64,000 nucleotides of DNA from Ralstonia sp. A12 (GTDB lineage: Bacteria; Pseudomonadota; Gammaproteobacteria; Burkholderiales; Burkholderiaceae), in the NCBI RefSeq assembly GCF_000801955.1, contig NZ_JSZO01000008.1:186001-250000 (forward strand), read 5' to 3'. This document shows positions 15,948 through 45,445 of the stretch, one piece after another. How positions within the stretch are numbered: position 1 is the stretch's first letter; every line of letters begins with the position of its first letter. Under the pieces are notes generated by a model that did no database searches, was not told the origin of the DNA, and saw only the letters and a list, made by a program, of their open reading frames with translations. The position numbers were made by a program, and so were the translations under genes.

Positions 15948-15980
15948 CCCAACCCGCACGCTACTCCAAGGAGAAAACTC

Positions 15981-16932: not shown

Positions 16933-17718
16933 TTATCGGGTGATCTGCAGGCCCACGTAGACCAGAAGTTGCTGCCGGTCTTCGGAGGGCGCTCCGAACT
17001 CGCGGCCGACTGCACCCAGCAGCGTGTAGGTGTCGTTGATCTTCCAGTGCATGCCGAGGTTCAGCAATGTGTGGTGTGCGCCGGGGGCCTGCGTCCTGCG
17101 CACCTCGGCAATGCATTCGCGCCCTTCGCCACAAGCATGTCCGGCCACAATGCCGGCAACCCATTGACTGTCGCCGCCGCCCGAAACGAAGTTGCGGCCA
17201 ACCTCGGTCGAAACCCCAAAGCCACCGACATCGGTTGCCACCTCAAGCGGCAGGAAGAACTCGTGCCCATCGCCCGCAATGCCACGCCGCGTGGATGAAT
17301 CCAGCATGCTCCGACTGTACTGCGGATAGGTCGACACCGAGAAGCCCGCCTGCTCCTGATCAATGAAGCGCCATTTCACGCCAAAGTTGCCGGTTCCCAG
17401 GCCCGACTTCCAGCGTTGACCATCGTCACGGACAAAGGTCCACGGAATGTCGGCCTTGAGCTGGATGTGGTCGCCCCAGCCGTAGTTGATGTCGGCATCG
17501 GGTGCGGCCACCTCCAGGCGGCCGTGCGTACGGGTTGCAATCGCGCCGAGGTTGATCTCCCAATGGCCGTCGCCGGGCGTTTCGGGATCGTCGGTCACCA
17601 TGGGCGGCCCGCCTTGCGCCAGTACAGGCCCGGCGATTGCGGCACTCGCGATGAGTGCCAACCAGCGTGCTGTGCAGCGCAAACGTACCCTCACGCTGCT
17701 CGAAAATGGCTTATGCAT
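16933..17718 (-). CDS. Outer-membrane beta-barrel protein
   Basis: 261 residues with a signal peptide (cleavage near residue 35, VLA-Q). The mature protein starts PPMVTDDPETPGDGHWEINLG and continues as alternating strands with aromatic ends (DINYGWGDHIQLKADIPW, YVGLQITR at the C-terminus). This resembles the outer-membrane transport proteins linked to aromatic-degradation loci (PF13557-like). It is the last gene of the leftward efflux operon, 42 bp after the RND gene. A protein of identical length and similar style ends the other leftward operon (40642-41427). The transposase fragment begins directly behind its stop codon. Confidence 0.75.
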   Translation of the reverse strand: MHKPFSSSVRVRLRCTARWLALIASAAIAGPVLAQGGPPMVTDDPETPGDGHWEINLGAIATRTHGRLEVAAPDADINYGWGDHIQLKADIPWTFVRDDGQRWKSGLGTGNFGVKWRFIDQEQAGFSVSTYPQYSRSMLDSSTRRGIAGDGHEFFLPLEVATDVGGFGVSTEVGRNFVSGGGDSQWVAGIVAGHACGEGRECIAEVRRTQAPGAHHTLLNLGMHWKINDTYTLLGAVGREFGAPSEDRQQLLVYVGLQITR

Positions 17719-17760
17719 AAACGTCTCTTGATGGGTTGGGAAGGAAATGCATGCGTCCGC

Positions 17761-20700
17761 TCAGGATTGGGGGGAGATCGCGGACATGGGCTTCGGTCGC
17801 GCGCGTGACGCGCCAAGCGAATCGAACCCGAGGTACAGCACCGGAGTGATGAACAGCGTGATCAGTTGAGAGAGCAGCAGGCCGCCCACGATCGAGACGC
17901 CGAGCGGCTGGCGCAGCTCAGCGCCGGCACCGATACCCAGCGCGATGGGCAGCACGCCCATCAACGCGCACAACGTGGTCATCATGATCGGCCGGAAGCG
18001 CAGCAGGCAGGCCTTGCGGATGGCGTCTTCCGCACCAAGCCCTTCGTCACGGCGCGCCCCGATCGCGAAGTCGATCATCATGATTGCGTTCTTCTTCACG
18101 ATGCCGATCAACAGCAGAATGCCGATCATGGCGATGAAGCTGACCTCCATGCCGGACCATCGCAGGGCAAGCAGCGCACCGAGCGCCGCTGACGGAATGC
18201 CGAGCAGGATCGTGACCGGATGCACCCAGCTCTCGTACAGCATGCCCAGGATCACGTAGATGACCGCAACGGCAATCACGATCAGCCACAGCTGCGTCGT
18301 CTGTGATTGCTGGAACAGCGCCGCCTGGCCGCCAAAGGCACCGAAGACGGTGGCCGGCATCTTCAGCGTCTGTTGCGCCGATGCGATGGCGGCGGCCGCG
18401 TCCGACAACGATTTTCCGGGGGCCAGCTCGAATGACAGCGTCACCGCAGGCAACTGCGCCTGGTGGTTGACGGCAATCACACCTTTTCCGCGCGTGACGG
18501 TGGCGAACGCGCTCAACGGCACGGTCCTGACGGTCGCGCTGCGCACCTCGATCGCCAGCAGGTCGTTCTCGTCGCGCCGCTTCTCATCGACGACTTCCAG
18601 GATCACCTGATAGCTGTCTTCCGGCGCATAGATGGTCGAGACCTGACGGCTGCCGAACGCGCCATACAGCGTGTTGCGCAGCGTCGCCATGTCGATCCCG
18701 AGCTGTGCCGCCTTTTCCCGATCCACCTGCAGCTGCGCTTCGAGACCGTTCTTCTGGTAGTCGCTGTTCACGCCGACCAGCACGTCGGAATGGCGCAGCG
18801 CATCGACCAGCTTTCCGGCCCAGACATCAAGCTCGCCCGCGCCGACCGATTGCAGCGTGTACTGATACGTGCTCTTGGACGTGCGCCCACCCACACGCAG
18901 GTTCTGCACTGGGCTGAAGTACACACGAATGCTGGGCAGGAACGACGTGGACCGGCGCAGTTGCGCCAGCACATCGTCCAGCGGCGGCCGGTGGCTGCGA
19001 TCCTTCAGGTCGATCACGAGCTGCGTCGTGTCGTGGTCCACCTTGGTCGCCACGGCAGCCACATTGGCATCGTTGAGCACGACGCGCTCGATCTGCCCCA
19101 TCACCGCCAGCCGGCCCGCGAATGACATGTCTTCCGGCGCGTCGACGTTCGCGATCAGCTGCCCAATGTCCTCGCGGGGGAAGAACCCCTTTGGCGCGCC
19201 AATGTAAAGCCAGGCTGTAACCGCGAAGGTGGCTGCGCCGATGATCAGCACGATGGCGCGGTGCCGCAGCGCTACATCAAGCGCGTGCGCATACCCTGCA
19301 GCACAGCGCTCGAACCCGGCCTCGAAGAGACGGCTCCAGCGCCCCGCTTCGCGATGCGCGACCGGCACGCGCATCACCAGCGGCACCAGCAGGGGGATCA
19401 ACGTCAACGCCACCGCCGCCGACACCAGAATGGCCAGTGACACGACGATGGCGAACTCGTGAAACAGCCGGCCGATCGTGCCCGGCATGAAGAAGATCGG
19501 GATGAACACCGCCACCAGCGAGATCGAGATCGACATCACCGTGAAGCCCACTTCCCTCACGCCGGCTGCGGCAGCCTCGCGCGGCGTCATGCCCTCTTCG
19601 ATGTGGCGGATGATCGCTTCGAGCACGACAATCGCGTCGTCCACGACCAGCCCGACCGCAATGGTCAGCCCCAGCAGCGAGATGTTGTCCAGGCTCAGGC
19701 CACACGCCGCCATCAGCCCGAAGGTGCCGAACAGCGACAGCGGCACGCTGAGCGCAGGAACCAGCGTGATCGCGACCCGGCGCAGGAACAGCAGCATCAC
19801 CATCACAACCAGCGCGATCGTCAACAGCATGGTCAGGTTGACATCGTGGATCGCCTCGCGAATCGAGATCGAGCGATCACCGCGTGTCTCGATCGAGACC
19901 GACGCCGGCAGCGCGGCCTGCAGCTTCGGCAGCAGCGTGTGCACGGCATCGACCACCGCCACCGTATTGGCATCGGGTTGACGCTGCACCGACAACAGGA
20001 TCGATGGTTTGCCGTCAAGCGTGCTGACGTTCTGCACGTTCTCGATGCTGTCACGCACGTCGGCCACGTCGCTCAAACGGAGCACGCGGCCCTGGCGGTT
20101 GGCGACCACAATCTGGGCGAAGTCGGCCGCGTGCCGCAGGTTGCCGCTGATCTGCACGGTCAGCATCTGGCGCTGGTTGTCGAGCTGGCCAATGGGCGCG
20201 TTGGAGTTCGCGTTCTTCAGCGCGGCCGCCAGTTCCGCCAGCGTCAGATCCAGCGCCGACAGCCGCGCCGGATCGGCCTGGATGCGCACGGCGTAGCGCT
20301 TCTGGCCGGTCACCTGCACTTGGGCCACGCCTTTGATGGCGGACAACGCCGGCACCACCACGTTGTCGCTGTAGGCATTGAGGTCTGACAGCGACAGCGC
20401 CGGAGAACTCAGGCCGATGAGCAGGATCGGCATGTCGGCCGGGTTCACCTTCTTGTACGAAGGCGGCGCCGGCAGCTCGCTGGGCAGGGAACGCGTGGAC
20501 CGGAACAGCGCCGCCTGCACGTCGGCGGCCGCCGAGTCGATGTCGCGGCTGGCGTCGAACTCCAGCTGAATCTTGGTTTCGCCCTGGATGCTCGATGACG
20601 TGGTCATCACCAGCCCGGGAATCGCCGAAAACTGCTTTTCCAGCGGCGTCGCAATCGAACTGGCCATGTTCTGCGGGCTCGCACCGGGCAGTTTGGCGCT

Positions 20701-20841
20701 GACTTCCAGCGTGGGCGTGTCGTATTGCGGCAGGGCCGAGATGGGCAATTGCATCCAGCAGACCACGCCTGCGACGAGCACGCTGATCCAGAACAGCATC
20801 GTCGCAATGGGGCGTTGCAGGCAGGCCTCGGATAGCTTCAT
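17761..20841 (-). CDS. RND efflux pump inner-membrane subunit (HAE1 type)
   Basis: 1026 residues, the normal length of hydrophobe/amphiphile RND pumps. The N-terminus (CLQRPIATMLFWISVLVAG) and ISALPQYDTPTLEV are typical of the MdtB/MdtC branch. The proton-relay motif VGLVVDDAIVVLEA is present at about residues 395-410, and two large periplasmic loops follow helices 1 and 7. ATGA overlap with the adaptor gene shows translational coupling. With the MFP and TolC genes it forms a complete tripartite exporter. The substrate is unknown; the neighbouring uptake genes suggest a compound handled by this locus. Confidence 0.95.
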   Translation of the reverse strand: MKLSEACLQRPIATMLFWISVLVAGVVCWMQLPISALPQYDTPTLEVSAKLPGASPQNMASSIATPLEKQFSAIPGLVMTTSSSIQGETKIQLEFDASRDIDSAAADVQAALFRSTRSLPSELPAPPSYKKVNPADMPILLIGLSSPALSLSDLNAYSDNVVVPALSAIKGVAQVQVTGQKRYAVRIQADPARLSALDLTLAELAAALKNANSNAPIGQLDNQRQMLTVQISGNLRHAADFAQIVVANRQGRVLRLSDVADVRDSIENVQNVSTLDGKPSILLSVQRQPDANTVAVVDAVHTLLPKLQAALPASVSIETRGDRSISIREAIHDVNLTMLLTIALVVMVMLLFLRRVAITLVPALSVPLSLFGTFGLMAACGLSLDNISLLGLTIAVGLVVDDAIVVLEAIIRHIEEGMTPREAAAAGVREVGFTVMSISISLVAVFIPIFFMPGTIGRLFHEFAIVVSLAILVSAAVALTLIPLLVPLVMRVPVAHREAGRWSRLFEAGFERCAAGYAHALDVALRHRAIVLIIGAATFAVTAWLYIGAPKGFFPREDIGQLIANVDAPEDMSFAGRLAVMGQIERVVLNDANVAAVATKVDHDTTQLVIDLKDRSHRPPLDDVLAQLRRSTSFLPSIRVYFSPVQNLRVGGRTSKSTYQYTLQSVGAGELDVWAGKLVDALRHSDVLVGVNSDYQKNGLEAQLQVDREKAAQLGIDMATLRNTLYGAFGSRQVSTIYAPEDSYQVILEVVDEKRRDENDLLAIEVRSATVRTVPLSAFATVTRGKGVIAVNHQAQLPAVTLSFELAPGKSLSDAAAAIASAQQTLKMPATVFGAFGGQAALFQQSQTTQLWLIVIAVAVIYVILGMLYESWVHPVTILLGIPSAALGALLALRWSGMEVSFIAMIGILLLIGIVKKNAIMMIDFAIGARRDEGLGAEDAIRKACLLRFRPIMMTTLCALMGVLPIALGIGAGAELRQPLGVSIVGGLLLSQLITLFITPVLYLGFDSLGASRARPKPMSAISPQS

Positions 20842-21980
20842 CGCGCGTCCTTGCCCGTGCGTGCCGCGATGCGAACCGCAGCCCCGGGCTTGAGGCCCGC
20901 TTGCCCCTCGGCAACCACGCGCTCCCCGCCATTGAGGCCGTCGACCACCGCCATCTGATCTTGCAGGCGAAGCAACGTCACCTGCCGCACCTGCGCTTTG
21001 TTGTCGGCATCGAGCACGTAGACGAAGCGGCCCTGCGGCCCCTCAAGCAGTGCCTGCGGTGGCAGCACGATGGCGCCGTGACTCACGCCTGCGTCGATGG
21101 CGAGGTCCACATAGGCGCCAGGCCAGAGCGAGCGCGGCGCATTCGGAAACGACGCCTTGAGCGTGATCGTGCCGGTGTCGGTATTGACGGTGTTGTTGAC
21201 GAAGACGAGCGAGCCGGGCTGCCGATTGCCATCGGGCGTCTGCAATTCAATGCGGACGGTGCCAGCTGCGCGCGCATCCAGCAGCCGCGCCAGTTGCGAT
21301 TCCGGCAGCGAGAACTCAACACCGATCGGGTCGATCTGCACCACCGTCACGAGCGGCACCGCGGCGGTCGTCTGCGCGAGGCTGCCGGGGTGGACGGTAA
21401 GCGCGCCGGTCAGGCCCGCCATGGGGGCAGCTATGTGCGTGCGCTCGACCTGCAAACGGGAACTGGCCACTTCTGCCTGGACGGCCTTGTACTGCGCCTT
21501 CAATGATTCGAGCTTGCTGGCGCTGGTGTCGACCGCACTCGTCGAGTAGTAGTGCAACTTCGCCAGTTGCCGGATGCGGGCCAGGTCGCGCTCGGCATCG
21601 TCAACCTGCGCCTCGATCTGCGCCGCACTCGCTTGGGCGCGCTCGAGCTGCGCGGTCACGTCGCTCGCGTCGATCGTGAACAGCAGTTGCCCCGCCTTGA
21701 CGTCATCGCCCTCCCGAAAGTGGATGCCGCGCACCGTGCCGCCCACCTGGGGACGCACGTCAACCTGATTCAGCGGCACCACATGCCCGTGCGCGGACAG
21801 CTTGACGGGCAGATCGCGTGCCTCGGCCCGCACAACGCTGATCAGGGGTACTGGCTTGGCCGGCGATTTCGCAGCTTCGGATGGCCGGCCGAAGAGGGTG
21901 ACCTGCAGCAACGCGATCACCAGCCCCGCGGCTCCAAGCGCGATCGCGCCACGCAGCATGAAAGGCTTGTTCAGCGTCAT
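20838..21980 (-). CDS. RND periplasmic adaptor (MFP) subunit
   Basis: 380 residues from ATG at 21980, 10 bp after the TolC-like gene's stop. A single N-terminal membrane segment (residues 7-28) is followed by the lipoyl half-motifs (HGHVVPLNQVDVRPQVGGTV; HIAAPMAGLTGALTV) around a coiled coil (about 85-155), then beta-barrel and membrane-proximal domains. It links the pump to the outer-membrane channel. Its stop overlaps the RND start. Confidence 0.95.
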   Translation of the reverse strand: MTLNKPFMLRGAIALGAAGLVIALLQVTLFGRPSEAAKSPAKPVPLISVVRAEARDLPVKLSAHGHVVPLNQVDVRPQVGGTVRGIHFREGDDVKAGQLLFTIDASDVTAQLERAQASAAQIEAQVDDAERDLARIRQLAKLHYYSTSAVDTSASKLESLKAQYKAVQAEVASSRLQVERTHIAAPMAGLTGALTVHPGSLAQTTAAVPLVTVVQIDPIGVEFSLPESQLARLLDARAAGTVRIELQTPDGNRQPGSLVFVNNTVNTDTGTITLKASFPNAPRSLWPGAYVDLAIDAGVSHGAIVLPPQALLEGPQGRFVYVLDADNKAQVRQVTLLRLQDQMAVVDGLNGGERVVAEGQAGLKPGAAVRIAARTGKDAR

Positions 21981-21990
21981 GGTTCGTTGC

Positions 21991-23349
21991 TCATTTGGCC
22001 GAGCCGAGTGCCGCATTGACTTGCGCCAGGACTGAGTCATCCAGTGCGCCGGCGGAAGCCGCCAGCTGCAGGCGCGCATACAGGTAGTCGGAACGGGCAG
22101 ACGTGAGGTTGTAGAGCGTCTGGTAGTAGTTCTGCTCGGCGTTGAGCACGTCGATAATGGTGCGCACGCCCACCTCCTGCCCTACCTTGCTCGATCGCAC
22201 CGATGACTCGCCCGACACACGGGCGCGCTCCAGCGCCCGAATGCGCTGGGCGCCATCTCGAAGGCTGGCAAAGAACTGGCGCGTGGCACGTTGCGCCTCG
22301 CGCAGTCCGGCTTCCAGCGCGTAGCGCTGCTGGTCCTGGATCGCCATGGATTGGCGCAACAACGATTGCCGCGTGCCGCCGTCGACGAGCGGGATCGTCA
22401 GGCGCAGCCCGATCGTGCCGGCCGTGACAGCATCACGGCCACCCGACGTCGAAATGCTGCCCGCCTCGTATTGCCGCCCCACGCTGGCAACCGCCGTGAT
22501 GACCGGCGCACCGCGCCAGCTGTACTGGTCGCTGGAAAGCTCCGCGATCTCGACACCCAACTCAAGCTGACGAACGGTAGGATTGCTGCGCCGTGTCTGG
22601 TCGAGCCAGATCGCCAGCGTTGCCGGCGGCAACTCGCTCGCCGAAAACCCCGACAGGATGGGGGCCAGCTGCTGCGAGTTCACCCCGGTCAGCACGGCAA
22701 ACGCATCCGACTTGTTGGTAAGGTCGTTCTGGTTGGCAATCTGTGCGGCTACCACGCCGTCGTGCCGGGCCTGCGCGTCATCGGTATCGCTGGCGCTGCT
22801 CAGGCCCAGCGCATACGACTGCCTGGCCAGCGCCAGTTGCTCGCCGATGGCTTGCGCCTGGGTGTCTGCCAGCGCGACGTTCTCACGCGCGACCAGCACG
22901 TCGAAGTAGCTGCGCGCGACCCGCAGCATCAGATCCTGCTCGATCTGCTGATATTGAATCCGGGCCTGTTCGGCTTCCCGGTGAAGGCGTTCCCGGGCAA
23001 AGTTCGCACTCGCGTCGTACAGCGGCTTGCTCCAGACAACGCTCGTGCCGTAACTCTGGCCGCTTGTGTAAGAGCCTGGGTGTGACGACGTTGCCAACCC
23101 CGGGCGATAGTCCTGACCGGCCTGCCCTGCGTTGGCCGTCAGGTCAACGTGCGAGGCCGTCAACGCATCGCCCTGCGCGATCTTTTCTTCTGCGGCACGC
23201 AGCGCTGCCTGCGATGCCATGAGCGCGGCATCGTTCGCGCGCGCTGCCTGCCAGGACTCGACCAGATCGACCGCGCGCGCCGAGGAACACGCCGCCCCCA
23301 GAGACAGGAGGACGATCTGCGCAAACAGACGGTGAGGACATCGCAGCAT
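21991..23349 (-). CDS. TolC-family outer-membrane channel
   Basis: 452 residues with a signal peptide (cleavage near residue 26, ARA-V). Two structurally repeated halves of long helices are visible: RVARSYFDVLVARENVALAD in the first half and the closing NAEQNYYQTLYNLTSARSDYLYARLQLAA in the second, a standard TolC signature. It is first of the three pump genes; about 100 bp separates it from the beta-propeller gene upstream, so an internal promoter is possible. Confidence 0.95.
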   Translation of the reverse strand: MLRCPHRLFAQIVLLSLGAACSSARAVDLVESWQAARANDAALMASQAALRAAEEKIAQGDALTASHVDLTANAGQAGQDYRPGLATSSHPGSYTSGQSYGTSVVWSKPLYDASANFARERLHREAEQARIQYQQIEQDLMLRVARSYFDVLVARENVALADTQAQAIGEQLALARQSYALGLSSASDTDDAQARHDGVVAAQIANQNDLTNKSDAFAVLTGVNSQQLAPILSGFSASELPPATLAIWLDQTRRSNPTVRQLELGVEIAELSSDQYSWRGAPVITAVASVGRQYEAGSISTSGGRDAVTAGTIGLRLTIPLVDGGTRQSLLRQSMAIQDQQRYALEAGLREAQRATRQFFASLRDGAQRIRALERARVSGESSVRSSKVGQEVGVRTIIDVLNAEQNYYQTLYNLTSARSDYLYARLQLAASAGALDDSVLAQVNAALGSAK

Positions 23350-23448: not shown

Positions 23449-24489
23449 CTACTTCGCGTTGCCGGGCAGTACGTCGTACCGCAGCAATCCGGCCTTGGTG
23501 TCTGTCGAACCGCCAACGGCCACGTACAACCGGTGGAGCTCGGGCACCAGGAACGCCGTCTTCGCGCCCTTCTCCGACGGCACGCGCGCGATCTCGTCAT
23601 AGTGATCAGCATCGCGCTGCTGGAACACGGCAACGTAGTCGTCACCGGCAGCGTAGATACGGTGGTTCTTCGCGTCGAACATCATGCCGTTGGTACGGCC
23701 CGGCGCATCGAAGCTCGCTACCGACTGCCCGGTCTCCGTGTTGATCACCACGAGCTTGAACGGCTTGCGCGTGATCACGAACAGGCGCTTGTTCTTCTCG
23801 TCGAGATCAATCTGCGAGTTGTCCTTCCCCTCCTTGATCTGCCAGGTTGCCAGCGGCTGTCCGGTTTTCTTGTCGAGCACGGCAATCTCACCCTTGCCGG
23901 CAACATTGACGAAGACGCGCGAGCCGGCCTGCTCGGCCACGATGCCCTCGGTAAAGTCGGTGTCAAACGTGGTTTCGGCCAGCGTCTTGCCCGAGTCGAC
24001 ATCAACCTGCGTCACCAGCGTCTTCGTCATCTTGGTGGGCGCGTTCTTTCCGCCGGTGACAAACCACAGGCGGCGTGACGAGGGGTCGTAGCTCATCACA
24101 TCCGCACCCGGTGTCAGCTTGATCGTGCCGGTCACCGCATAACTTTTGCCGTCCAGCACCTTGCTCAGGCTTGCGCCGCTGTTGCTGACAAACAGCCGAT
24201 TGGTCTTCGGCTCGTAATGGATGGCATGCGGCGTCTCCATGCCTTTGACGGTCTTCAGGTGTGCGCCGCTGCGCAGGTCGAAGACCTCCAATGTTCCGCC
24301 GTCTTCGCCGGCCAGGAACAGCCGGTTGCCTTTGATGTCCGCACCAAAATGATCGAAATCACCGTCATACCCGGGCAGATCGGTACGGCTGAGCAAGCGC
24401 AATGGCTCGCCCGCCATGGCAACGTTGGACAACAACGTCGATGCTGCGAGCGCCATGGCGGTGGCGACCGTGCGAATGTTCGCTTTCAT
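23449..24489 (-). CDS. Periplasmic YncE-like beta-propeller
   Basis: 346 residues from ATG at 24489; signal peptide ends near residue 26 (AMA-G). Repeated blade motifs such as NRLFLAGEDGGTLEVFDL, TNRLFVSNSGASLSKVLDG, SRRLWFVTGGKN and KNHRIYAAGDDYVAVF fit a seven-blade YVTN/YncE propeller. Such proteins bind ligands or partner proteins in the periplasm; no enzymatic residues are evident. It lies between the small periplasmic sensor-like protein and the pump genes, all leftward. A beta-propeller is also found in some metal and cofactor uptake loci. Confidence 0.85.
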   Translation of the reverse strand: MKANIRTVATAMALAASTLLSNVAMAGEPLRLLSRTDLPGYDGDFDHFGADIKGNRLFLAGEDGGTLEVFDLRSGAHLKTVKGMETPHAIHYEPKTNRLFVSNSGASLSKVLDGKSYAVTGTIKLTPGADVMSYDPSSRRLWFVTGGKNAPTKMTKTLVTQVDVDSGKTLAETTFDTDFTEGIVAEQAGSRVFVNVAGKGEIAVLDKKTGQPLATWQIKEGKDNSQIDLDEKNKRLFVITRKPFKLVVINTETGQSVASFDAPGRTNGMMFDAKNHRIYAAGDDYVAVFQQRDADHYDEIARVPSEKGAKTAFLVPELHRLYVAVGGSTDTKAGLLRYDVLPGNAK

Positions 24490-24525
24490 GGGAGTCTTCA
24501 CCCTTCGCAAATGCGGCGCGCCGCT

Positions 24526-25142: not shown

Positions 25143-25158
25143 CTGTAGTGATCCTTAA
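25143..25158 (-). promoter_or_regulatory. Degenerate regulator repeat
   Basis: On the minus strand this reads TTAAG-N6-TACAG, an 11-bp-periodic direct repeat that differs by one base per half from the TTCAG-N6-TTCAG form before other units of this locus. It is 87 bp before the leftward start at 25056. Confidence 0.3.
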
Positions 25159-25263
25159 AATTCATTCAGCCAAGCTCGCGCCGGATCGAATAGCATCAAC
25201 GTGAACGCGCACGCGACCAAACGCGAACCCTCTTCGCCGCGCTATGAGACTGGAGCACCTCGC

Positions 25264-28015: not shown

Positions 28016-28017
28016 TC

Positions 28018-32197: not shown

Positions 32198-32253
32198 GTT
32201 GGAAGGCGAGCACGAACAGACATAGAACGACAACACGAGAGGAGACCCTAACC

Positions 32254-36527: not shown

Positions 36528-36565
36528 CTGAACGAACTTTCAGGTCACATTCATCCTGCATTCGG
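36528..36565 (+). promoter_or_regulatory. Regulator direct repeat before third PstS-like gene
   Basis: CTGAA (36528-36532) faces TTCAG (36539-36543), which repeats as TTCAT (36550-36554) and TTCGG (36561-36565), each 11 bp apart. A possible -10 box TAAGGT follows at 36576. The same motif is found before 27014 and 45445. This marks an internal promoter after the receptor gene. Confidence 0.6.
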
Positions 36566-37757: not shown

Positions 37758-38846
37758 ATGGAAGACAACCCCATGCATGCAATTTCCATCCGGCGGATGG
37801 TCCGCCAAGTTGGATTCACCATCGCTGTTGGCGCAATCTTCGCGGCATCCGCAGCCCCGGCTGCAAGCGTAGACACACCAGTCGAAACACAGCTGGAAAC
37901 CGGCAGCGCATTACCGCACTTTCAGCCCGCACGGCTCCAACAACCCATGGGGGCGCCCTATCAAAATTCCGATGGTGTCATCCGGATCATCGGTTACAAC
38001 GACATGCAGGGCATGCTCGTCAGGATCAATGCGCTCTTTCAGCGGCTCCATCCTGAGTTCAGGTTCGAACTGATTCTCAAAGGCACACGCACTGCGCCAG
38101 GCGCACTGGCACGCGGCACATCCCTGCTCGCCCCGATGGGCGCCGAGTTTTCCGACGCAGAGTTGGCGGCCTACATGAAGCAGACCGGAACAGCGCCGGT
38201 CATGTTCCGGGTTGCACACGATTCGTTGAATCCCGCTGCGCTGTCGGCGCCGTTGGCCATCTTCGTGGGCGCGCAGAATCCGTTGCCCCACCTCAACATG
38301 GAGCAACTGGCCCGCGTGTTCACGGCGTCGCCTCATGGCATGGCTACGTGGGGCCAACTCGGGTTGGATGGTGAATGGGCTTCGCGCCCCATCCATCTCT
38401 GCGGGCTTGCACCATCGACAGCGCTGGGCCGGCTCATGCAGCGCCGGCTGGGCGACCAACCATTCGCCAAAGGGTTCACCGCGTTCCAGCAGTCTCGAGA
38501 TGCGGTGGAGTGCGTCGCCGCGGACCCGCTGGCGATCGGATTCGCCGCCATCAACCGAGGCGTTCCGGCGGTCAGGGTAGTACCGCTGTCGGAGCACGAG
38601 GAAGATGCACCCTCCAGCGGAACGCGAGAAGACATCGTCACCAACCGCTACCCGCTGGACCGCTATCTGCTGATCTATTTGCGCACCGACGCGCAGCGGA
38701 AGGCTAATCCTGTCGCCCGCGAGTACCTGCGTTTGATGCTGTCTTACGAAGGGCAGCAGGCCATCGCGAATGAAGGGCTCGGATACCTGCCGTTGAATGC
38801 CCGCGAGCGTGCGGAAGAACTGCGGCGGCTGTCAGCGCTGGACTGA
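37758..38846 (+). CDS. PstS-like periplasmic binding protein
   Basis: 362 residues from ATG at 37758; ATG at 37773 fits a signal peptide (VGFTIAVGAIFAASAAPAAS) better. The fold begins IRIIGYNDMQGMLVRINALF and includes NPLPHLNMEQLARVF, WGQLGLDGEW and YLRLMLSYEGQQAI. Fourth of the set, 70 bp after the third. Sequence is the most divergent of the four. It ends 41 bp from the convergent response-regulator gene. Confidence 0.88.
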   Translation: MEDNPMHAISIRRMVRQVGFTIAVGAIFAASAAPAASVDTPVETQLETGSALPHFQPARLQQPMGAPYQNSDGVIRIIGYNDMQGMLVRINALFQRLHPEFRFELILKGTRTAPGALARGTSLLAPMGAEFSDAELAAYMKQTGTAPVMFRVAHDSLNPAALSAPLAIFVGAQNPLPHLNMEQLARVFTASPHGMATWGQLGLDGEWASRPIHLCGLAPSTALGRLMQRRLGDQPFAKGFTAFQQSRDAVECVAADPLAIGFAAINRGVPAVRVVPLSEHEEDAPSSGTREDIVTNRYPLDRYLLIYLRTDAQRKANPVAREYLRLMLSYEGQQAIANEGLGYLPLNARERAEELRRLSALD

Positions 38847-38887: not shown

Positions 38888-39550
38888 TCAGAGGAGCTGG
38901 TACCCGACACCGCGTACGGTCTTGAAAAGCGGCTTGCCCGGTACTTCGAGCTTGGCACGCAGCCTGCTCATGTAGACATCCAGCAGATTTGTATCCACGT
39001 CGTAGTGTGCCGACCAGATCTTCTCCGAGATCAGCGTGCGCGGCAGAATCCGCCCTTGGTTCTGCATGAAGACTTCGAGCAGCGCGTACTCTCGACTGGT
39101 CAGGTCGACCGGCTTGCCATTGAGCGTGACGGTGTGACTGAGCAGATCCAGGCAAATGCCTGCATGCTCGAGCACCACCTGCTTGACGGCAGCGTGGCGG
39201 CGGACCAGCGATCGCACGCGCGCAAGCAGTTCTTCCAGACTGAATGGCTTGGCAAGGTAATCGTCGGCACCGATGTCCAGCCCCTTCACGCGGTCCTGTA
39301 CGCCGTCGCGTGCGCTCAGGATCAGCACCGGCTCCTGGAAACCGCCCTTACGCCAAGTACGGAGCAGGTCAAGGCCATCGCCATCGGGCAACCCAAGATC
39401 CAGGATCACGACATCGTAAGAGGACTCAACGATGGCGTCGGTCGCCGCTGCACAGGTCCGGGCCAGCGTGACGGTGTATGAGCACTCCGTCAGCCCTTGC
39501 TGAAGGAACCGGCCTAACCGATCTTGATCCTCAACAATCAACGCCTTCAT
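38888..39550 (-). CDS. OmpR-family response regulator
   Basis: 220 residues from ATG at 39550, which follows AGAGGA at good spacing. Receiver domain: acidic VEDQD at the start, phosphoacceptor D51 in VILDLGLPDGDG, K101 in YLAKPFSLEELL. The C-terminal winged helix has LTSREYALLEVFMQNQGRIL and YMSRLRAKL. It is of the TctD/QseB type. No kinase gene is adjacent; the orphan kinase at 25264 is the natural partner. It likely binds the TTCAG repeats found in this locus. Confidence 0.94.
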   Translation of the reverse strand: MKALIVEDQDRLGRFLQQGLTECSYTVTLARTCAAATDAIVESSYDVVILDLGLPDGDGLDLLRTWRKGGFQEPVLILSARDGVQDRVKGLDIGADDYLAKPFSLEELLARVRSLVRRHAAVKQVVLEHAGICLDLLSHTVTLNGKPVDLTSREYALLEVFMQNQGRILPRTLISEKIWSAHYDVDTNLLDVYMSRLRAKLEVPGKPLFKTVRGVGYQLL

Positions 39551-39803
39551 ACGCATCCTCTGCAAATTCCATCGGGCATTTCGCGCACCACAAGCGGACG
39601 CAACGCCTCATCTCCAAATGATGCTTGCTTAACAGCTGATTGCAATCCGGTCTGGTACGTAGAGAACGATTTCCCCCACGGTTCCAGCGATACCAAACAC
39701 GCGCAGGGCACGAAAACTGCCTATGAGTAACCTAAGTCTGCAAGAGGAGACTTGCCTACCAGAATCCGACATACCGCTACTTGCATCAGCCTTGGAGAGA
39801 ACC

Positions 39804-40577
39804 ATGTCAGTCATCCAATCACGCCACTCGACAGAGGCCGCCCTGGCCAAAGTCCCCGAGGTCACGCTCGGGTTCTGGATCATCAAGATCGCCGCGACGA
39901 CGCTTGGAGAAACCGGCGGCGATGCCGTCTCGATGTCAATGAACCTGGGCTACCTGCTCAGCACCGGCATCTTCGCGGCGATCTTCCTGGCACTGGTGAT
40001 GGCGCAGATCAAGGCCAAAGCATTCCGTCCCTTTCTGTACTGGACCACCATCATCGCCACCACCACCGTCGGTACCACGCTGGCCGACTTTGCGGACCGA
40101 TCGCTCGGCATCGGATACGCCGGTGGTTCGGCCCTGCTGCTGGTACTGCTGCTGGGCTCACTCGTCTTCTGGCACCGAACCCTCGGCTCCATCTCGGTCA
40201 GCACCGTCAGCACGCCGAAGGTCGAGGCGTTCTACTGGGTGACGATCATGTTCTCCCAAACGCTGGGGACAGCGCTGGGCGACTGGACCGCCGACACGGC
40301 AGGCCTGGGATACACCGGTGCAGCCATCGTGTTCGGCGCGCTGCTGGCCTTGATCGTGATGGCCTACTACTGGACCCGCGTATCACGCACCCTGCTGTTC
40401 TGGGCCGCGTTCATCCTGACCCGGCCGCTGGGCGCCGTCGTGGGCGACTTCCTGGATAAGCCGCTGAACGCAGGCGGCTTGGCGCTCAGCCGCTATTCCG
40501 CATCGGCTGCGCTGGTCGGGTTCATCTTAGTCAGCATGCTGCTCGTTCGACAGAGGGCCGCCAGCACCGCGCACTGA
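39804..40577 (+). CDS. COG4705-like four-repeat membrane protein (second copy)
   Basis: 257 residues from ATG at 39804, preceded by GGAGAG. It opens with KVPEVTLGFWIIKIAATTLG, nearly identical to the protein at 15135. Four repeats carry buried acidic motifs: TLGETGGDAV, TVGTTLADFA, TLGTALGDWT and PLGAVVGDFL. About eight membrane helices. It is divergent from the response-regulator gene and convergent with the outer-membrane protein gene. Function unknown; an ion-coupled role is an inference from the acidic residues. Confidence 0.85.
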   Translation: MSVIQSRHSTEAALAKVPEVTLGFWIIKIAATTLGETGGDAVSMSMNLGYLLSTGIFAAIFLALVMAQIKAKAFRPFLYWTTIIATTTVGTTLADFADRSLGIGYAGGSALLLVLLLGSLVFWHRTLGSISVSTVSTPKVEAFYWVTIMFSQTLGTALGDWTADTAGLGYTGAAIVFGALLALIVMAYYWTRVSRTLLFWAAFILTRPLGAVVGDFLDKPLNAGGLALSRYSASAALVGFILVSMLLVRQRAASTAH

Positions 40578-40641: not shown

Positions 40642-41427
40642 TCAATGAAACGGAATCTCGAAAATCCACTTGATCGTCCAGCGGTCCGTCGCACGCGTCA
40701 GGCCGCGGCCGATGCCGACGTTGAAGACGAACGGCTTGCGATCTACATCGAATGCCAGGAAGACGGTGTGCTGCTGCTCGTGCAACGGCGCAAGATGGTT
40801 GATGCGACCGAGGCCCGCGTAGTACTCCAGCCCCGCACGCACACCGGCCGCCACCGTGCGGGCCACCTTGAAGGCAGGTGCCGCTTCAGGAACGCCGCTG
40901 CGGTCGGGCCCGCTCAGATTCCAATCGAGCACCGGGTTGATGGCCCACAACCATTGTTCGTTCTGATAACCATAGATGGGGCGCAACTCCGCCGCCTGCT
41001 GAGACTGTTCAAATCGGGATGCCACATGGGCCAGCTCCACGTTGATACCGGCAAAGCGGCCAACGCCGTCCTCCGGCCGCACGGGCATCCACTTCATGCG
41101 CACCTTGGGGCCAGTGACGTAGTACGTATTGCCGCGCGTGAGCGCGGTCGGGATGTACAGCCCAAGCTCGATCGAAGGCGTCAAGCCATAGGAGAACTCG
41201 GCAGTTGCGCGCCAGCCATGCGGCGTCGTGACCTCGCCGGGATACGACGGCTCGCCGATACCGCTGGGGGTGGTATTGAGGTGCAACTCCAGACCCAATT
41301 CGCCCGGTGCGTTGATGTCACCTGTGTAGACCTGGATTTCATCGGGGAGTACGGCATGGGCCGACAGCGTGGACAGGCCCAACATCGCGGCGATCCCGGC
41401 GGTACGTGCAACACGCAATAGCGGCAT
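40642..41427 (-). CDS. Outer-membrane beta-barrel protein (second copy)
   Basis: 261 residues with signal peptide (cleavage near residue 25, AHA-V). Start supported by GAGGAAG. Alternating strands include GELGLELHLNTTPSGIG, TAEFSYGLTPSIELGLYIP and the C-terminal WTIKWIFEIPFH with the terminal aromatic region typical of barrels. It resembles the 261-residue protein at 16933 in length and role. It is the last gene of the leftward operon that begins at 45445, 38 bp after the SsuA-like gene. Confidence 0.75.
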   Translation of the reverse strand: MPLLRVARTAGIAAMLGLSTLSAHAVLPDEIQVYTGDINAPGELGLELHLNTTPSGIGEPSYPGEVTTPHGWRATAEFSYGLTPSIELGLYIPTALTRGNTYYVTGPKVRMKWMPVRPEDGVGRFAGINVELAHVASRFEQSQQAAELRPIYGYQNEQWLWAINPVLDWNLSGPDRSGVPEAAPAFKVARTVAAGVRAGLEYYAGLGRINHLAPLHEQQHTVFLAFDVDRKPFVFNVGIGRGLTRATDRWTIKWIFEIPFH

Positions 41428-41465: not shown

Positions 41466-42494
41466 TTAGCGCAAGGTCTTCAGTGCTTCGTCGACGAATA
41501 CATTGGTATAGGTCCGGGCAATCTTCACCGAGCCGTAGCTTGGATTGGCCGCTGCGAGGGTTCGCCACTCCTTCTCTGCGCCGTCCTCCGGCATGCGGCC
41601 ATCGTTGGCGAACATCGGAATCTCCTGCTTCAGCACCTTCAGATAGGCGGCGCGGTCCTTCCCGCTGATCTCCTGCGGAATGACGGCCAGGATCTGCTCC
41701 GGCGTATGGGTGTTGATGTAGTGCAGCGTACGAACGAACGCACCCGCCAGATGCCGGGCGATTTCCGGGTGGGCCTGCACGCGCGCACTCGACATGTAGA
41801 CCGTGCTCGACGGGAACAGCGCGCCCAGGTTCCGGCGTGTGCCGTCAACCGTGGTCAGGTCGGCAAACACGGTCGCCACGCCGTTCGACTCATAGACGTC
41901 TCCATCCGGGGTGGGCGCGACAACGAACTCAGCGCGCCCGTCGCGCAGCGCCTCGATGTTCTTCTCCTTCCCATCCGTCCCGAGACGCATGTAGTCGCCA
42001 ATGCCGTGCCCGCCTGCCAGTACCAGCGCATTCGCCAGCGTGCTCTTCGACGAACCTGCCCCGCCAGCGATGAAGCGCGCGCCCTTGAGATCGGCCACGC
42101 TCTGGTACTTCGCTTTCGCCTGGTTCGCGACCAGCACCTTGGCGCCGGGCGTAACACCTAGCGTGACAACCGCCTCGGTATCGATGCCGCGCGACTGGTT
42201 GACCACGTTGTGGTGGTAGTAAGCCATCACGGCATCGACGCGGCCATCCTTGAGCATCTCGGCGGTCGATACGTCGTCACGGATGTTCATGACCGTCACG
42301 GTAGTCCGCCCATCGCTCAGATAGCCGAGGCGCTCGGCCAGGACCACCGGGAAGTTGCGGATCGCCTTGATCTCATCGACCAGCAGGACGATGCGCTCCG
42401 GCGCGGCAGCGGCATCAGAGACAGCCGGCTCGGCAGCCAGCGCGTGGCCAGCAACCAGGCCAAGGAGGGTCAGGGCAACGATGCGGGTGTTCAT
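41466..42494 (-). CDS. SsuA/NMT1-like periplasmic binding protein (second copy)
   Basis: 342 residues from ATG at 42494, with AGGA eight bases upstream; signal peptide ends near residue 21 (ALA-A). IRNFPVVLAERLGYLSDGRTTV and VADLKGARFIAGGAGSSKST match the lobe motifs of the protein at 27014, and the C-terminal parts (RTLHYINTHTPEQI versus LRYINTHSAAEI) are also close. It has no ATPase or permease of its own in this operon, so it may feed the ABC transporter at 28018-29732 with a second ligand. Confidence 0.88.
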   Translation of the reverse strand: MNTRIVALTLLGLVAGHALAAEPAVSDAAAAPERIVLLVDEIKAIRNFPVVLAERLGYLSDGRTTVTVMNIRDDVSTAEMLKDGRVDAVMAYYHHNVVNQSRGIDTEAVVTLGVTPGAKVLVANQAKAKYQSVADLKGARFIAGGAGSSKSTLANALVLAGGHGIGDYMRLGTDGKEKNIEALRDGRAEFVVAPTPDGDVYESNGVATVFADLTTVDGTRRNLGALFPSSTVYMSSARVQAHPEIARHLAGAFVRTLHYINTHTPEQILAVIPQEISGKDRAAYLKVLKQEIPMFANDGRMPEDGAEKEWRTLAAANPSYGSVKIARTYTNVFVDEALKTLR

Positions 42495-42517
42495 TGGAGA
42501 GTCCTCAACAGCGTTCT

Positions 42518-43312
42518 TCATGGGTTCACGGCAATGCGATCGGCGATCACCACTTGCAGCTCGGTACGCACCTCTTTCTTGCCGTCGCTGATCGCCTTCC
42601 ATTCCGGATTGGCCTTCAGACGCTCACGCACCTTCGCAACCACCGCCTCACGCGTGCTCAGCGCGGCTTCATTCTTGTATTGCAGCACCACCATCGCATT
42701 CCACGGGCGGCCGGCCGGAAACCGGCTCGTGTAGAGCGAATACCCCTGCAACACGCCCTCCTCCATCCATCCCTTGAACTGCGGAATGACATAGCCGTCC
42801 GCATACTTCTCATAGTCGGGCTCTGACACCAGCGTCTTGTAGGGGATGACCACGTACACGGCATGCGCAGACTTGGCATCCAACGGCGCCAGGCGCTTCA
42901 TGTCGACCGGTGTCGTGTGGATCGACGTCGTCACCGCAGCGGCCTCTTTTGACAGGCCTGCGGGCCGCAACCGCTCGGTTTCTCGCCACCGATACAGGTC
43001 GTCCGGCGTGGCAAACGTCAGCACGGCCATGGCGTCCCAGTTGTCCGAATCGGCGTAGCGGTTGAAGAGCAAGTTGTACTGCTTGATTCGTCCGTCCTGC
43101 TTCCAGCGGGCAAGCTCGGGCGCAGTCGACTGCTCCATCGCTTGCCGCAGCACTGGCCGGTTCACGGGGGTAGTCTGGTAGGTGATGATCAATGACTGCG
43201 CATCGCTGGCGGCGGGCTCGGCTGCAACGGAAACGCCTGCATGAAGCGCCCCCGTGAGCGCAGCGACGGCAGCGGCGGTGTGCGCGAATGCTCGAATCAA
43301 GTTGAATGTCAT
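42518..43312 (-). CDS. Periplasmic protein with two dimeric alpha-beta barrel domains
   Basis: 264 residues from ATG at 43312; signal peptide ends near residue 31 (SVA-A). Two related ferredoxin-like domains are visible: the first begins SLIITYQTTPVNRPVLRQAM and holds NWDAMAVLTFATPDDLYRW; the second begins HAVYVVIPYKTLVSEPDYEK and holds PWNAMVVLQYKNEAALSTR. This resembles EthD, YdhR or heme-oxygenase-like (IsdG) barrels, but those are usually cytoplasmic. No catalytic residues could be assigned. It lies between the reductase fusion and the SsuA-like gene. Confidence 0.65.
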   Translation of the reverse strand: MTFNLIRAFAHTAAAVAALTGALHAGVSVAAEPAASDAQSLIITYQTTPVNRPVLRQAMEQSTAPELARWKQDGRIKQYNLLFNRYADSDNWDAMAVLTFATPDDLYRWRETERLRPAGLSKEAAAVTTSIHTTPVDMKRLAPLDAKSAHAVYVVIPYKTLVSEPDYEKYADGYVIPQFKGWMEEGVLQGYSLYTSRFPAGRPWNAMVVLQYKNEAALSTREAVVAKVRERLKANPEWKAISDGKKEVRTELQVVIADRIAVNP

Positions 43313-43384
43313 GCGTATTTCGTCAGGACGACGTCGTAAGAAAACAGAAACTGCGGCCCGCATGGCGCGGGCATCCCCGATGGG

Positions 43385-45445
43385 TCAGATGTCCAGCACG
43401 AGAAGTTCGCCCTTCGCGCGCGAACAGCACGGCGTGAAATGCTCGTTCCGCTGCCGCTGCTCATCTGTGAGCACACAATCGAGATGCTCTACCTCACCTG
43501 CGATCACCCGCGTGACACACGTGCCGCAGACGCCCTCCTCGCACGAGGTCGGGATCTTCACACCGTGTTCGGCCAGCAATGCGGTGACCGTCATGTGCTG
43601 GGGCACCCGGTAGACCTTACCGGTGCTCGCGAGCTGCACGTCAAAGGCATGCACGATGGTGGGCTTGCCCACGATGGGCCCGAAGCGTTCGCAATGCAGT
43701 TGCTGCTCCGGCCAGCCACGCTGCCGTGCAGCAGCTAGTGCCGCGTTGACGAAGCCCGACGGCCCGCACACATACAGATGCGTACCCGCCGGCTGCCGGT
43801 CGAGCACCTGTTCAACGTTGATCCGGTGCTGCACACCGGCATCACTGAAGTGATACGCCACCCGGCGTGCAAACGGCGCCTTCGCAAGCCGCTGCAAGAA
43901 CGCCGCCCGGGGCCGCGAGCGCGCGCAGTAGTGCATTTCGAACTCCGCCGCGCGGCGCGACAGCCGCTCCGCCATGCAGACAATAGGCGTAATGCCGATG
44001 CCGCCGGCCAGCAGCAACGAATGCGGTGCAGACTCGTCCAGTGCGAAGCGGTTGCTGGGCTTGCCGATCTCAAGCAAGTCCCCTTCGCGAACGTGCCCAT
44101 GCATCGCAATCGATCCGCCGCGCGATGGGTCGGTCCGCAGCACCGCAATCACATAGCGATGCCGCTCCTGCGGGTCGTTGCACAGCGAGTACTGGCGCAC
44201 CATGCCATTGCCCATGTGCACGTCGATATGCGCTCCGGCGGTGAACCGTGGCAGCTTTTTCCCTGCCGGGTGCACCAGCTCGAACGCGCAGACGGCGTCG
44301 GCTTCCTTCGTCTTCTTCGCAACACGCACCACCAGGCGTGCGTGGTTCGCCCCACTGCGCCGCACCCGGCGCAGGTAATTGCGGATGCCGGTGTAGGCCA
44401 GCACGGGCACGCAGAGCGCACCGAATATCAGGAGCAATTTCCCCAACACGCCGCCCACCAGCCCGGTGTGCCATGACAGCAACCAGAAATACAGTTTGTG
44501 CCCGAGACTGCTTTGCGTGTACGGAACGTACTTCAGCACCTTCCCCGAGTACGCATCCATGTACAGCATCGTGCGTGCGTTCGCATGCGGGGCACTACGA
44601 TCGATCAGGTACATCTCGACCGGCGCCCGTGGTTTTTCCGGGATATGCATCAGCGCATCACGCGGCTCGGGCGACAACGACTGTGCGGTCTGCCAGAAAC
44701 GCTCAAGCGGCAGGCGTGTCGCGCCGGTTGATTGCACTTCCGACTTTGGCGGCTTTGCAGGCTCGGGCGAGCCCACGAGCGCATAGAGACCGTGCGCATA
44801 CCAGTCAAACGCCTGTGGCAAGCCGCTCAGTACCATCGACAGGAGGATCAGGCCGCCATAAATGCCAGCCGTCCGATGCAGGCGGTAAGGCGACACCACG
44901 CGCGTTGTTCCAGACCTGAGCGAGAACGCATCCCGCCAGCCACCGCGCGTGCGGGGCCACCAGAGCGCAACGCCGCCGCCAATCAGCAACACGCCGAACA
45001 AGATCGCGCTTGTCCCAGTGATCAGGCTGCCGTTCTTCATGAAACGGAAGCGGTGGATTTTCTCGATGGTGCCAAGCAGACCACCATAGCGGGCCCGCTC
45101 GCCCAGCACCGCTCCGGTACATGGGTTCAGGTAGACGAAATGCTGATCGGTGAACCGGACCATCGCAGACGGCATGCGCACTGCACCAGGTTCGCCCGCA
45201 ACCATTCGGATGTAATCGAGCTTGGCATCGGCCCGCAACGCGGCTGCATTGGCCGTCAGCGTATCGAGAGGCACGCGGCCCGTGCAAGTCGGCACCGTCA
45301 GCAGATCGCTATTGAGCACGGGCTCAAGCTCCGGACGGAATGCGATCGATGCGCCCGTCACCGCCATCAGTAGGATCACGAGCCCGACCGTCAAGCCGGT
45401 ATAGCGATGCATCTGAAAGAGACGGGAACGAAATGCGGGGCTCAT
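43385..45445 (-). CDS. PepSY membrane protein fused to FMN/NAD(P)H and 2Fe-2S reductase
   Basis: 686 residues in two parts. Residues about 1-375 are a PepSY-associated membrane domain with four helices and conserved His (FQMHRYTGLTVGL, IEKIHRFRF, RLHRTAGIYGGL, LLSWHTGLVGG). Residues about 380-590 are a phthalate-dioxygenase-reductase-like module: RQYSLCNDP for flavin, LLLAGGIGITPI for nicotinamide, YVCGPSGFV. A plant-type 2Fe-2S domain ends the protein, with C635, C640, C643 and C674. The enzyme could pass electrons from cytoplasmic NAD(P)H across the membrane through haem to a periplasmic ligand, as PepSY reductases do for ferric siderophores (inference). First gene of its operon. Confidence 0.88.
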   Translation of the reverse strand: MSPAFRSRLFQMHRYTGLTVGLVILLMAVTGASIAFRPELEPVLNSDLLTVPTCTGRVPLDTLTANAAALRADAKLDYIRMVAGEPGAVRMPSAMVRFTDQHFVYLNPCTGAVLGERARYGGLLGTIEKIHRFRFMKNGSLITGTSAILFGVLLIGGGVALWWPRTRGGWRDAFSLRSGTTRVVSPYRLHRTAGIYGGLILLSMVLSGLPQAFDWYAHGLYALVGSPEPAKPPKSEVQSTGATRLPLERFWQTAQSLSPEPRDALMHIPEKPRAPVEMYLIDRSAPHANARTMLYMDAYSGKVLKYVPYTQSSLGHKLYFWLLSWHTGLVGGVLGKLLLIFGALCVPVLAYTGIRNYLRRVRRSGANHARLVVRVAKKTKEADAVCAFELVHPAGKKLPRFTAGAHIDVHMGNGMVRQYSLCNDPQERHRYVIAVLRTDPSRGGSIAMHGHVREGDLLEIGKPSNRFALDESAPHSLLLAGGIGITPIVCMAERLSRRAAEFEMHYCARSRPRAAFLQRLAKAPFARRVAYHFSDAGVQHRINVEQVLDRQPAGTHLYVCGPSGFVNAALAAARQRGWPEQQLHCERFGPIVGKPTIVHAFDVQLASTGKVYRVPQHMTVTALLAEHGVKIPTSCEEGVCGTCVTRVIAGEVEHLDCVLTDEQRQRNEHFTPCCSRAKGELLVLDI

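Follow-up and report, generated by a model that had tools for sequence, protein, structure and literature searches.

A candidate regulon for TonB-dependent uptake of a metal chelate, possibly metal-citrate, in Ralstonia sp. A12 and scattered relatives

The ferric dicitrate (Fec) system, FecA-FecBCDE-FecIR, combines a receptor carrying an STN domain with a FecCD-type permease and a sigma/anti-sigma pair, and in the YncE/PqqU pair a beta-propeller stands beside a TonB receptor. We compared with these systems a block of about 20 genes in Ralstonia sp. A12, located inside a 64-kb window (the whole stretch of DNA analyzed, contig NZ_JSZO01000008.1, positions 186,001 to 250,000) of a 6.1-Mb genome. 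Tentatively, and with a little less than even confidence, we read the block as a regulon for the TonB-dependent uptake of a metal chelate, with citrate or a similar 2-hydroxycarboxylate as the most probable ligand and Fe(III) as the likeliest metal. The block resembles Fec in this proposed job, the TonB-dependent import of a metal-citrate chelate. Unlike Fec, the block genes scanned against Pfam have no STN domain, FecCD-type permease or sigma/anti-sigma pair; control is by a two-component pair, and GAF/PAS-like domains are predicted at the receptor N-terminus. Membership in the Fec family was rejected on these grounds, as NMT1, ABC_tran and BPD_transp_1 proteins, a kinase and an OmpR-type regulator replace the STN domain, the FecBCD-type transporter and FecIR. 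The adjacency of propeller and receptor is the same as in YncE/PqqU, yet the block propeller scores far below the YncE cut-off.

Closer parallels exist for single elements. Caulobacter requires the PepSY protein HiuB, which resembles the reductase FoxB, to use ferrioxamine (PMC13001220), and the RND pump ExsFGH exports a ferric siderophore from the periplasm of Bradyrhizobium (PMC10760861). Going by the abstracts, HiuABC/FoxB share with the block a TonB receptor plus a PepSY protein, and FsrB-ExsFGH a reductase plus RND export. The same abstracts make no mention of PstS arrays, of the Nd proteins described below, of a propeller, of 2HCT symporters or of two-component control and, unlike the PepSY proteins they portray, that of the block is fused to a NAD/2Fe-2S module. 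CrtA, a scavenger-type receptor for carboxylate-bound metal (PMC12914433), resembles the block in this proposed role. The BqsR operator is TTAAG-N6-TTAAG (PMC4682146); BqsR/PmrA-type regulators and the block have in common pentamer repeats 6 bp apart, with an 11-bp period, upstream of the regulon, and BqsRS and the block differ in the half-site (TTCAG in the block, often as CTGAA-N6-TTCAG) and in the genes downstream. Each of the main parts, TonB receptor, PepSY protein, RND pump and PstS fold, belongs to a known kind. Literature searches aimed at the system found no description of it among the records listed (subscription papers and preprints lay outside their coverage), nor any account of this gene combination, of a receptor built with Nd domains, of PstS arrays with altered pockets or of the operator.

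The first-pass annotation had listed for this block a TonB receptor, four PstS-like proteins, a transporter set, an RND pump, a beta-propeller, a PepSY fusion and a two-component pair, and all are present. We add to them two proteins (Nd1 and Nd2) and a double receptor domain that share one type of domain, Nd, as well as a 281-residue protein and DUF347 proteins. The main features, with the positions in the window, are:

23449..24492, minus strand: YncE-like beta-propeller (TIGR03866 and YncE models, far below cut-off)
24526..25056, minus strand: Nd1, periplasmic protein with a single Nd domain (no Pfam or NCBIfam family)
25154..25169: operator with one mismatch (CTTAA-N6-TTCAG), between Nd1 and the kinase
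25201..26628, plus strand: sensor histidine kinase (PF00512, PF02518, PF00672)
26888..26925: operator array of four half-sites at 11-bp steps, the middle two exact (26899-26914)
27014..28015, plus strand: NMT1/THI5-type binding protein, SsuA1 (PF09084, 2e-19)
28012..28860, plus strand: ABC ATPase (PF00005, 6.4e-31)
28857..29732, plus strand: ABC permease (PF00528, 8.8e-27)
29808..30728, plus strand: Nd2, tandem Nd-domain protein (no Pfam family)
30725..32197, plus strand: PstS-like protein 1, with a longer N-terminus (PF12849, 2.5e-17)
32251..33426, plus strand: PstS-like protein 2 (PF12849, 5.3e-21 on a longer open reading frame)
33570..36476, plus strand: TonB-dependent receptor with two N-terminal Nd domains (PF00593 and PF07715; TIGR01783, 266.6 bits)
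36528..36554: operator before PstS-like 3, CTGAA-N6-TTCAG plus a third half-site with one mismatch
36632..37687, plus strand: PstS-like protein 3 (PF12849, 3.3e-16)
37758..38846, plus strand: PstS-like protein 4 (PF12849, 1.1e-06)
38888..39565, minus strand: OmpR-type response regulator (TIGR01387, 227.8 bits, below the cut-off of 279.2)
41466..42500, minus strand: second NMT1-type binding protein, SsuA2 (PF09084, 2.5e-07 on a longer open reading frame)
42518..43363, minus strand: periplasmic tandem alpha/beta protein of 281 residues (no Pfam family)
43385..45445, minus strand: fusion of PepSY_TM, NAD-binding and 2Fe-2S reductase domains (PF03929, 1.9e-48; PF00111; PF00175)
45495..45510: operator before the PepSY fusion, CTGAA-N6-CTGAA on the plus strand

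The operator that recurs in this list consists of TTCAG/CTGAA half-sites six bases apart. Its exact pair occurs three times in the window (26899, 36528 and 45495), always in noncoding DNA of the block and before the SsuA1, PstS-like 3 and PepSY genes; the one-mismatch pair between Nd1 and the kinase belongs to a fourth operon. The shared promoter repeats proposed at first pass are therefore real and constitute a common operator in front of the operons. Pairs with one mismatch were found within the block at 25154, 26888, 26910 and 36539, and outside it at 14785 and 16528, with five more in coding DNA. A search of the 6.1-Mb genome for CTGAACGNNCTTTCAG, allowing up to one mismatch, returned two matches, both exact and both in the block; the reversed-pattern control likewise returned two, so the raw count does not exceed chance, and it is position and conservation that carry the evidence. 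An unbiased spaced-dyad search of the intergenic DNA of the window yielded nothing above shuffles (best 2 regions versus 2-3 in shuffles), and the operator was picked by eye from its output and then tested on relatives. In 64 loci totaling 1.15 Mb we counted 103 pairs at spacing 6, a number inflated by near-identical loci, compared to 0-9 at each of the spacings 0-5 and 7-14 and 0-12 for ten other 5-mers in the same test. Noncoding pairs make up 86 of the 103 and most frequently precede Nd1 (17 loci), the propeller (9), PstS-like 3 (8) and the regulator, PstS-like 2 and SsuA1 (7 each). In a slightly different locus set, CTGAA-N6-TTCAG was counted 52 times, TTCAG-N6-TTCAG 31, CTGAA-N6-CTGAA 30 and the fourth arrangement 0, and 25 places had three or four half-sites in step with an 11-bp period. 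The SsuA1 and PstS-like 3 operators are exact in 5/5 Ralstonia blocks and the PepSY operator in all three that have the gene (window genome, R. soli and R. pickettii H2Cu5); upstream of Nd1, none of the five has an exact pair. The kinase and regulator genes are 12 kb apart in the window. Relatives of the regulator are 67-80% identical and its recognition segment is almost invariant in 11 regulators from Ralstonia to Opitutae; kinase relatives are 46-57% identical. We infer that the regulator recognizes TTCAG half-sites spaced by one helical turn and controls the operons jointly. As a separate observation, a Ralstonia metagenome-assembled genome (MAG; locus L055) has additional sequence whose inverted arms recall a small mobile element between the operator and PstS-like 3 (within ~220 bp upstream of the gene).

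The Nd domain spans ~140 residues, has no family in Pfam or NCBIfam, and occurs once in Nd1 (24526-25056), twice in Nd2 and twice at the receptor N-terminus; Nd2 is 31% identical to receptor residues 15-304. Its fold in the AlphaFold2 model of Nd1 (pLDDT 89.1) is predicted to be GAF/PAS-like. The Foldseek matches of the model include the DcuS/CitA sensor domains 3by8 (2.9e-04) and 8biy (7.9e-04), amid many GAF domains. By scanning the genome contigs of one collection with Nd1 patterns we obtained 62 loci, a sample in which forms without Nd (for example, L141 and L142) are under-represented and neighbor counts are lowered by the 24 loci shorter than 20 kb. Neighboring open reading frames (ORFs) were clustered after a frame-composition filter against antisense shadow ORFs, and one or two members per cluster were scanned against Pfam and NCBIfam. 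The loci span Beta-, Alpha- and Gammaproteobacteria and Verrucomicrobia, including Ralstonia, Rudaea, Roseateles, Polaromonas, Sphingomonas, Collimonas, Paraburkholderia, Phenylobacterium, Methylacidimicrobium and Opitutae, some of the MAG assignments perhaps reflecting binning errors; within the family of the window genome, Nd-type matches were present in 10 of 299 genomes, its own included. Nd1 relatives are 50-97% identical, and two second copies are at 35 and 41%. PstS-like genes accompany Nd at 44/62 loci, a propeller relative at 43 (some at only 21-26% identity), a second Nd protein at 36, a TonB receptor at 31 (two subfamilies counted), an orthologous regulator or kinase at 23, an ABC permease at 17, RND relatives at 15 (many at 25-29% identity), a 2HCT symporter at 10 and barrel B at 3. 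Among the 38 loci of at least 20 kb, 36 have a PstS, propeller or receptor gene. Tandem Nd domains are fused to the propeller in L111, L124 and L127, and Nd pairs are also fused to the receptor. In Azoarcus sp. KH32C and Paraburkholderia sp. PGU19 the genes for receptor, PstS-like, SsuA-like, PepSY and Nd proteins, propeller and two-component pair are plasmid-borne, and SsuA2 is 67-82% identical to relatives in blocks of Azoarcus, Paraburkholderia, Burkholderia and Collimonas. The receptor of Diaphorobacter sp. HDW4B lacks Nd; this strain also has the alpha/beta protein and, next to a kinase gene, one of TctC type, with a regulator only 37% identical. A chance cluster is ruled out by the gene order in congeners and relatives.

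The core thus recurs as blocks in other genomes, the kind of conservation by which the system was to be defined. Independent occurrence of the parts, which would have refuted a joint system, was not seen for the receptor, Nd, PstS-like, ABC or 2HCT carrier, propeller and two-component genes; it does hold for DUF347, barrel B and the RND pump, as well as for the PepSY operon in two congeners. Three side observations concern the loci themselves. In PGU19 (L048) the PepSY fusion and SsuA2 relatives are each matched in two pieces (11979-14035; 15266-16293). Two MAGs titled Eremiobacterota (L082 and L103) hold pieces of a betaproteobacterial-type block, with a binning error as the likely cause. A class I methyltransferase gene directly follows Nd1 in L078, L079, L080, L083, L087 and L105 (a cluster of 8 loci, one member scanned).

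The carboxylate ligand is suggested by the carriers and enzymes of the relatives. A 2HCT symporter stands at 10/62 Nd loci, as in Alphaproteobacterial and Opitutae forms. The 2HCT proteins scanned in relatives exceed the PF03390 gathering score (456.3 bits in L083, 452 in L095 and 466.4 in L142) and are closest to the citrate:cation symporter model TIGR00783, at 419 and 434.3 bits versus a cut-off of 549.05, scores that leave their citrate specificity unproven. In 9 of the 10 genomes with 2HCT-bearing Nd loci, the copy at the locus is the only one. Nd and 2HCT also co-occur at the genome level in two families belonging to different phyla, by Fisher tests that ignore kinship: in the family of a Sphingomonas locus (249 genomes; Nd in 5, 2HCT in 5, both in 4; P = 1.6e-7, or 6.4e-6 without the center genome), the two lie within 10 kb in three genomes and 207 kb apart in one, and in the family of an Opitutae locus (200 genomes; Nd in 13, 2HCT in 15, both in 7; P = 3.9e-6, or 1.3e-3 after dropping genomes already known as loci) all seven pairs lie within 10 kb. 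The ABC permease (17) and the 2HCT symporter (10) never share a locus among the 62, an exclusivity that is confounded with phylogeny. Other neighbors include an ATP-citrate-lyase-like pair in four loci, inside Paraburkholderia and Polaromonas blocks, TctC-LuxR fusions in four, RraA-like proteins in four, and DASS and SDF carriers in others. The minimal form, L142, has no Nd and sets receptor, PepSY_TM and 2HCT genes in a row, with the same two-component pair and an operator near the receptor start. PepSY_TM genes directly precede the carrier in L133, L138 and L142 (PF03929, 5.8e-53 to 8.4e-53), and an exact operator lies within 1.7 kb upstream of 7 of 20 2HCT genes.

Within the genus, the Nd-receptor was found in 4 of 15 other congeners, and all four keep the order from barrel A and the propeller through the regulator. 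The genes around this conserved stretch are:

16933..17718, minus strand: outer-membrane-barrel-like protein A, putative (no Pfam family match)
17761..20841, minus strand: RND permease, AcrB-type, accessory (PF00873, 8.6e-292)
20838..22079, minus strand: RND periplasmic adaptor, accessory (TIGR01730, 252.3 bits, above cut-off)
21991..23349, minus strand: TolC-type outer-membrane factor (OEP), accessory (PF02321, 5.5e-42)
39723..40577, plus strand: DUF347 protein, membership uncertain (PF03988, 3.4e-60)
40642..41427, minus strand: barrel-like protein B, putative, membership uncertain (no Pfam family match)

R. soli has the whole block. R. pickettii H2Cu5 retains only fragments of the RND and OEP genes, without the adaptor and the relative of DUF347 (39723-40577), and PstS-like 4 is nearly gone. 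In strain SET104 the OEP and adaptor are missing and the pump is reduced to an RND fragment; PstS-like 4 is mostly gone and the PepSY operon entirely so. In the Ralstonia MAG, whose contig ends after the regulator, the pump is absent. The losses mark both the pump and the PepSY fusion as accessories within the genus. Two of the Ralstonia loci have short RND fragments between an intact propeller and barrel A (L052, 10305-10475; L056, 9151-9394, the latter also with OEP), which look as if pump genes had been deleted. The pump genes lie on one strand after Nd1 and the propeller, and the closest NCBIfam models of the permease are RND_permease_2 and MdtC, both below cut-off. Of the reduction and export roles suggested at first pass, the position of the pump behind Nd1 and the propeller agrees with the idea; the absence of pump and PepSY genes from some congeners, and of RND relatives from all but 15 of the 62 loci, does not. 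The two outer-membrane barrels it named exist as genes, and the label itself stays putative without a Pfam match; relatives of barrel A are 27-33% identical in Burkholderia, Paraburkholderia and Pandoraea blocks. In R. pickettii H2Cu5 (L057), the PepSY fusion and barrel B are each matched in two pieces (5421-6202; 8167-10217). A second DUF347 membrane protein, of the same four-repeat kind, lies beside the block at 14994-15947, and Collimonas sp. OK307 (L097) has a relative of DUF347a (72%) and one of a 140-residue protein inside its block.

Sequence evidence establishes the parts, their spread over several phyla, the common operator, the loss of the PstS phosphate loop and the connection of relatives with citrate-type transporters. 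If the parts act together as we propose, the kinase would sense a periplasmic signal and the regulator, on its TTCAG half-sites, would switch the operons jointly. The receptor would pull the chelate through the outer membrane, and its Nd domains, the free Nd proteins, the propeller and the altered PstS-like and NMT1-like proteins may receive and retain, on the periplasmic side, the chelate, the free ligand or the metal. In forms that have it, the PepSY protein would pass electrons for metal release, in the window from the fused NAD/2Fe-2S module; the fusion has the PepSY_TM domain that characterizes FoxB and HiuB and is a candidate ferric-chelate reductase. The ligand or a product would then cross the inner membrane through the ABC transporter (the window type) or a 2HCT symporter (many Alphaproteobacterial and Opitutae forms), and the RND pump, where present, could send unused chelate or ligand back outside.

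Several observations count against a metal-citrate regulon. The match of the Nd fold to CitA/DcuS is weak and common to many GAF domains. The block itself has no 2HCT, ATP-citrate-lyase or TctC gene, and in the four block-bearing congeners 2HCT is missing in three and a fragment in one. With 2HCT off the block or missing in Ralstonia, the ligand could differ there, and the Ralstonia form does not depend on this carrier. Among 39 genomes representing 40 of the 62 Nd loci, 21 have 2HCT, which in 11 of those lies outside the fetched loci. No exact operator was found within 1.7 kb upstream of 13/20 2HCT genes (two have less than 300 bp of sequence there) or of any ATP-citrate-lyase-like gene (0/5 with an operator). 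PepSY relatives are within reach at only 7/62 loci; an orthologue of the fusion is absent genome-wide in SET104, and none was found in the 88%-complete MAG. The pump is missing or fragmentary in some congeners (C-terminal RND fragments only in two, none in the MAG). Five of the 62 Nd loci, three of them on short stretches, have no PstS, propeller, receptor or two-component orthologue, and most kinases lack the ExxE motif that those of Ralstonia share with a few close relatives. The single 2HCT gene of the window genome, we note separately, is on another contig (G000:C12:197906-199138).

The main rivals of the metal-citrate reading are other siderophores and other metals. The more serious, which we still consider rather unlikely, is uptake of a ferric siderophore (a xenosiderophore) whose ligand contains no citrate; the relatives' citrate-type carriers would then have a different purpose. 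The receptor speaks for it: it exceeds the TIGR01783 cut-off for TonB-dependent siderophore receptors (266.6 versus 223.5 bits), shows only PF00593 and PF07715 and no STN domain in a Pfam scan at E 0.001, and has as closest solved relatives the mycobactin (FemA), acinetobactin (BauA) and pyochelin receptors, with FecA not among the matches listed. The L142 receptor is likewise siderophore-type, with FecA marginal, and PepSY and RND proteins fit known siderophore handling as abstracted (PMC13001220; PMC10760861). Such a ligand would, however, leave unexplained the 2HCT, DASS, SDF, TctC and ATP-citrate-lyase-like neighbors and the genome-level association. Less probable is another metal, copper or lanthanide, taken up as a carboxylate chelate. 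Beta-propellers occur in other metal clusters, and the kinase and regulator match heavy-metal subfamilies best, under cut-off. CrtA is reported to import copper chelated by carboxylate-bearing molecules (PMC12914433). Yet the annotated neighbor clusters, for the part of the neighbors scanned, include no metal-specific gene, and the RND relatives are not clearly of the heavy-metal type. Still less probable is the use of free citrate or similar hydroxycarboxylates as a carbon source, with the metal incidental. The relatives' carriers and ATP-citrate-lyase-like enzymes are indeed carbon-metabolism genes and the PepSY gene is missing in two congeners, but a TonB receptor and a reductase would then be needless, and PepSY_TM genes directly precede the carrier in the three loci named above.

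The binding proteins bear on two further alternatives. Phosphate or organophosphate scavenging through the PstS-like proteins, which we hold to be very improbable, has in its favor their PF12849 family and fold, with the phosphate-binding proteins 4omb/4pqj as the closest solved chains (8.9e-57 for PstS-like 3 with 4omb). The residues of the GR-x3-SGT loop are phosphate ligands in PstS. In 128 PstS-like sequences, including the four of the window, the aligned loop retains the Arg in 0, SGT in 5 and both in 0, and a looser pattern anywhere in the sequences matched one protein, in L100. PstS-like 2 reads LYGIRPWNGF where 4omb has LFGRNSVSGT, PstS-like 3 reads LYGLKPVNGI, PstS-like 4 reads LCGLAPSTAL, and PstS-like 1, below the TIGR02136 cut-off, has lost the canonical loop. 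The sole ABC permease and ATPase of the block belong to the NMT1 operon and Pfam scans found no pstCAB beside the PstS-like genes, so the Pst family, like Fec, was rejected. In relatives the arrays grow to nine ORFs at one locus; as a side observation, L075, L093, L095 and L099 each have eight or nine, many with pocket-motif classes absent from the window. Sulfonate, thiamine-precursor or aromatic uptake around the NMT1/ABC transporter has NMT1/THI5 and SsuA model matches behind it and is hardly credible, with SsuA1 and SsuA2 at 58.2 and 33.3 bits on TIGR01728 (cut-off 163.5) and the permease at only 17/62 loci; the same scores reject SsuABC membership and the sulfur or aromatic substrates first suggested. 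The closest solved chain of both proteins is 3qsl (2.1e-58 and 1.3e-24), for which no ligand information was obtained and whose name was absent from the papers matched in the literature search. The 281-residue protein has no Pfam or NCBIfam family; its model (pLDDT 80.7, from 7 sequences) has a predicted ABM/chlorite-dismutase/HemQ-type fold, and distant relatives (23-27%) are fused to the N-terminus of PstS-like proteins in L078 and L093.

A more specific form of the metal-citrate reading is possible, if doubtful. It would make these loci a class of TonB system, not found in the literature searched, in which the receptor carries tandem periplasmic GAF/PAS-like domains that sense ligand, and an exchangeable group of non-phosphate PstS paralogues, as many as nine and with a fixed pocket motif for each class, acts as a combinatorial periplasmic relay for different metal-hydroxycarboxylate complexes under one two-component switch, from Proteobacteria to Verrucomicrobia. 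If uptake of a metal-citrate chelate is correct, the block would represent an uncharacterized and widely scattered route to metal bound to citrate-like acids. It would also assign a role to Nd, a periplasmic domain without a family in Pfam or NCBIfam, and to several PstS-like classes that are easily mistaken for phosphate-binding proteins, and would provide a regulator-operator pair with which to find and test the whole regulon.

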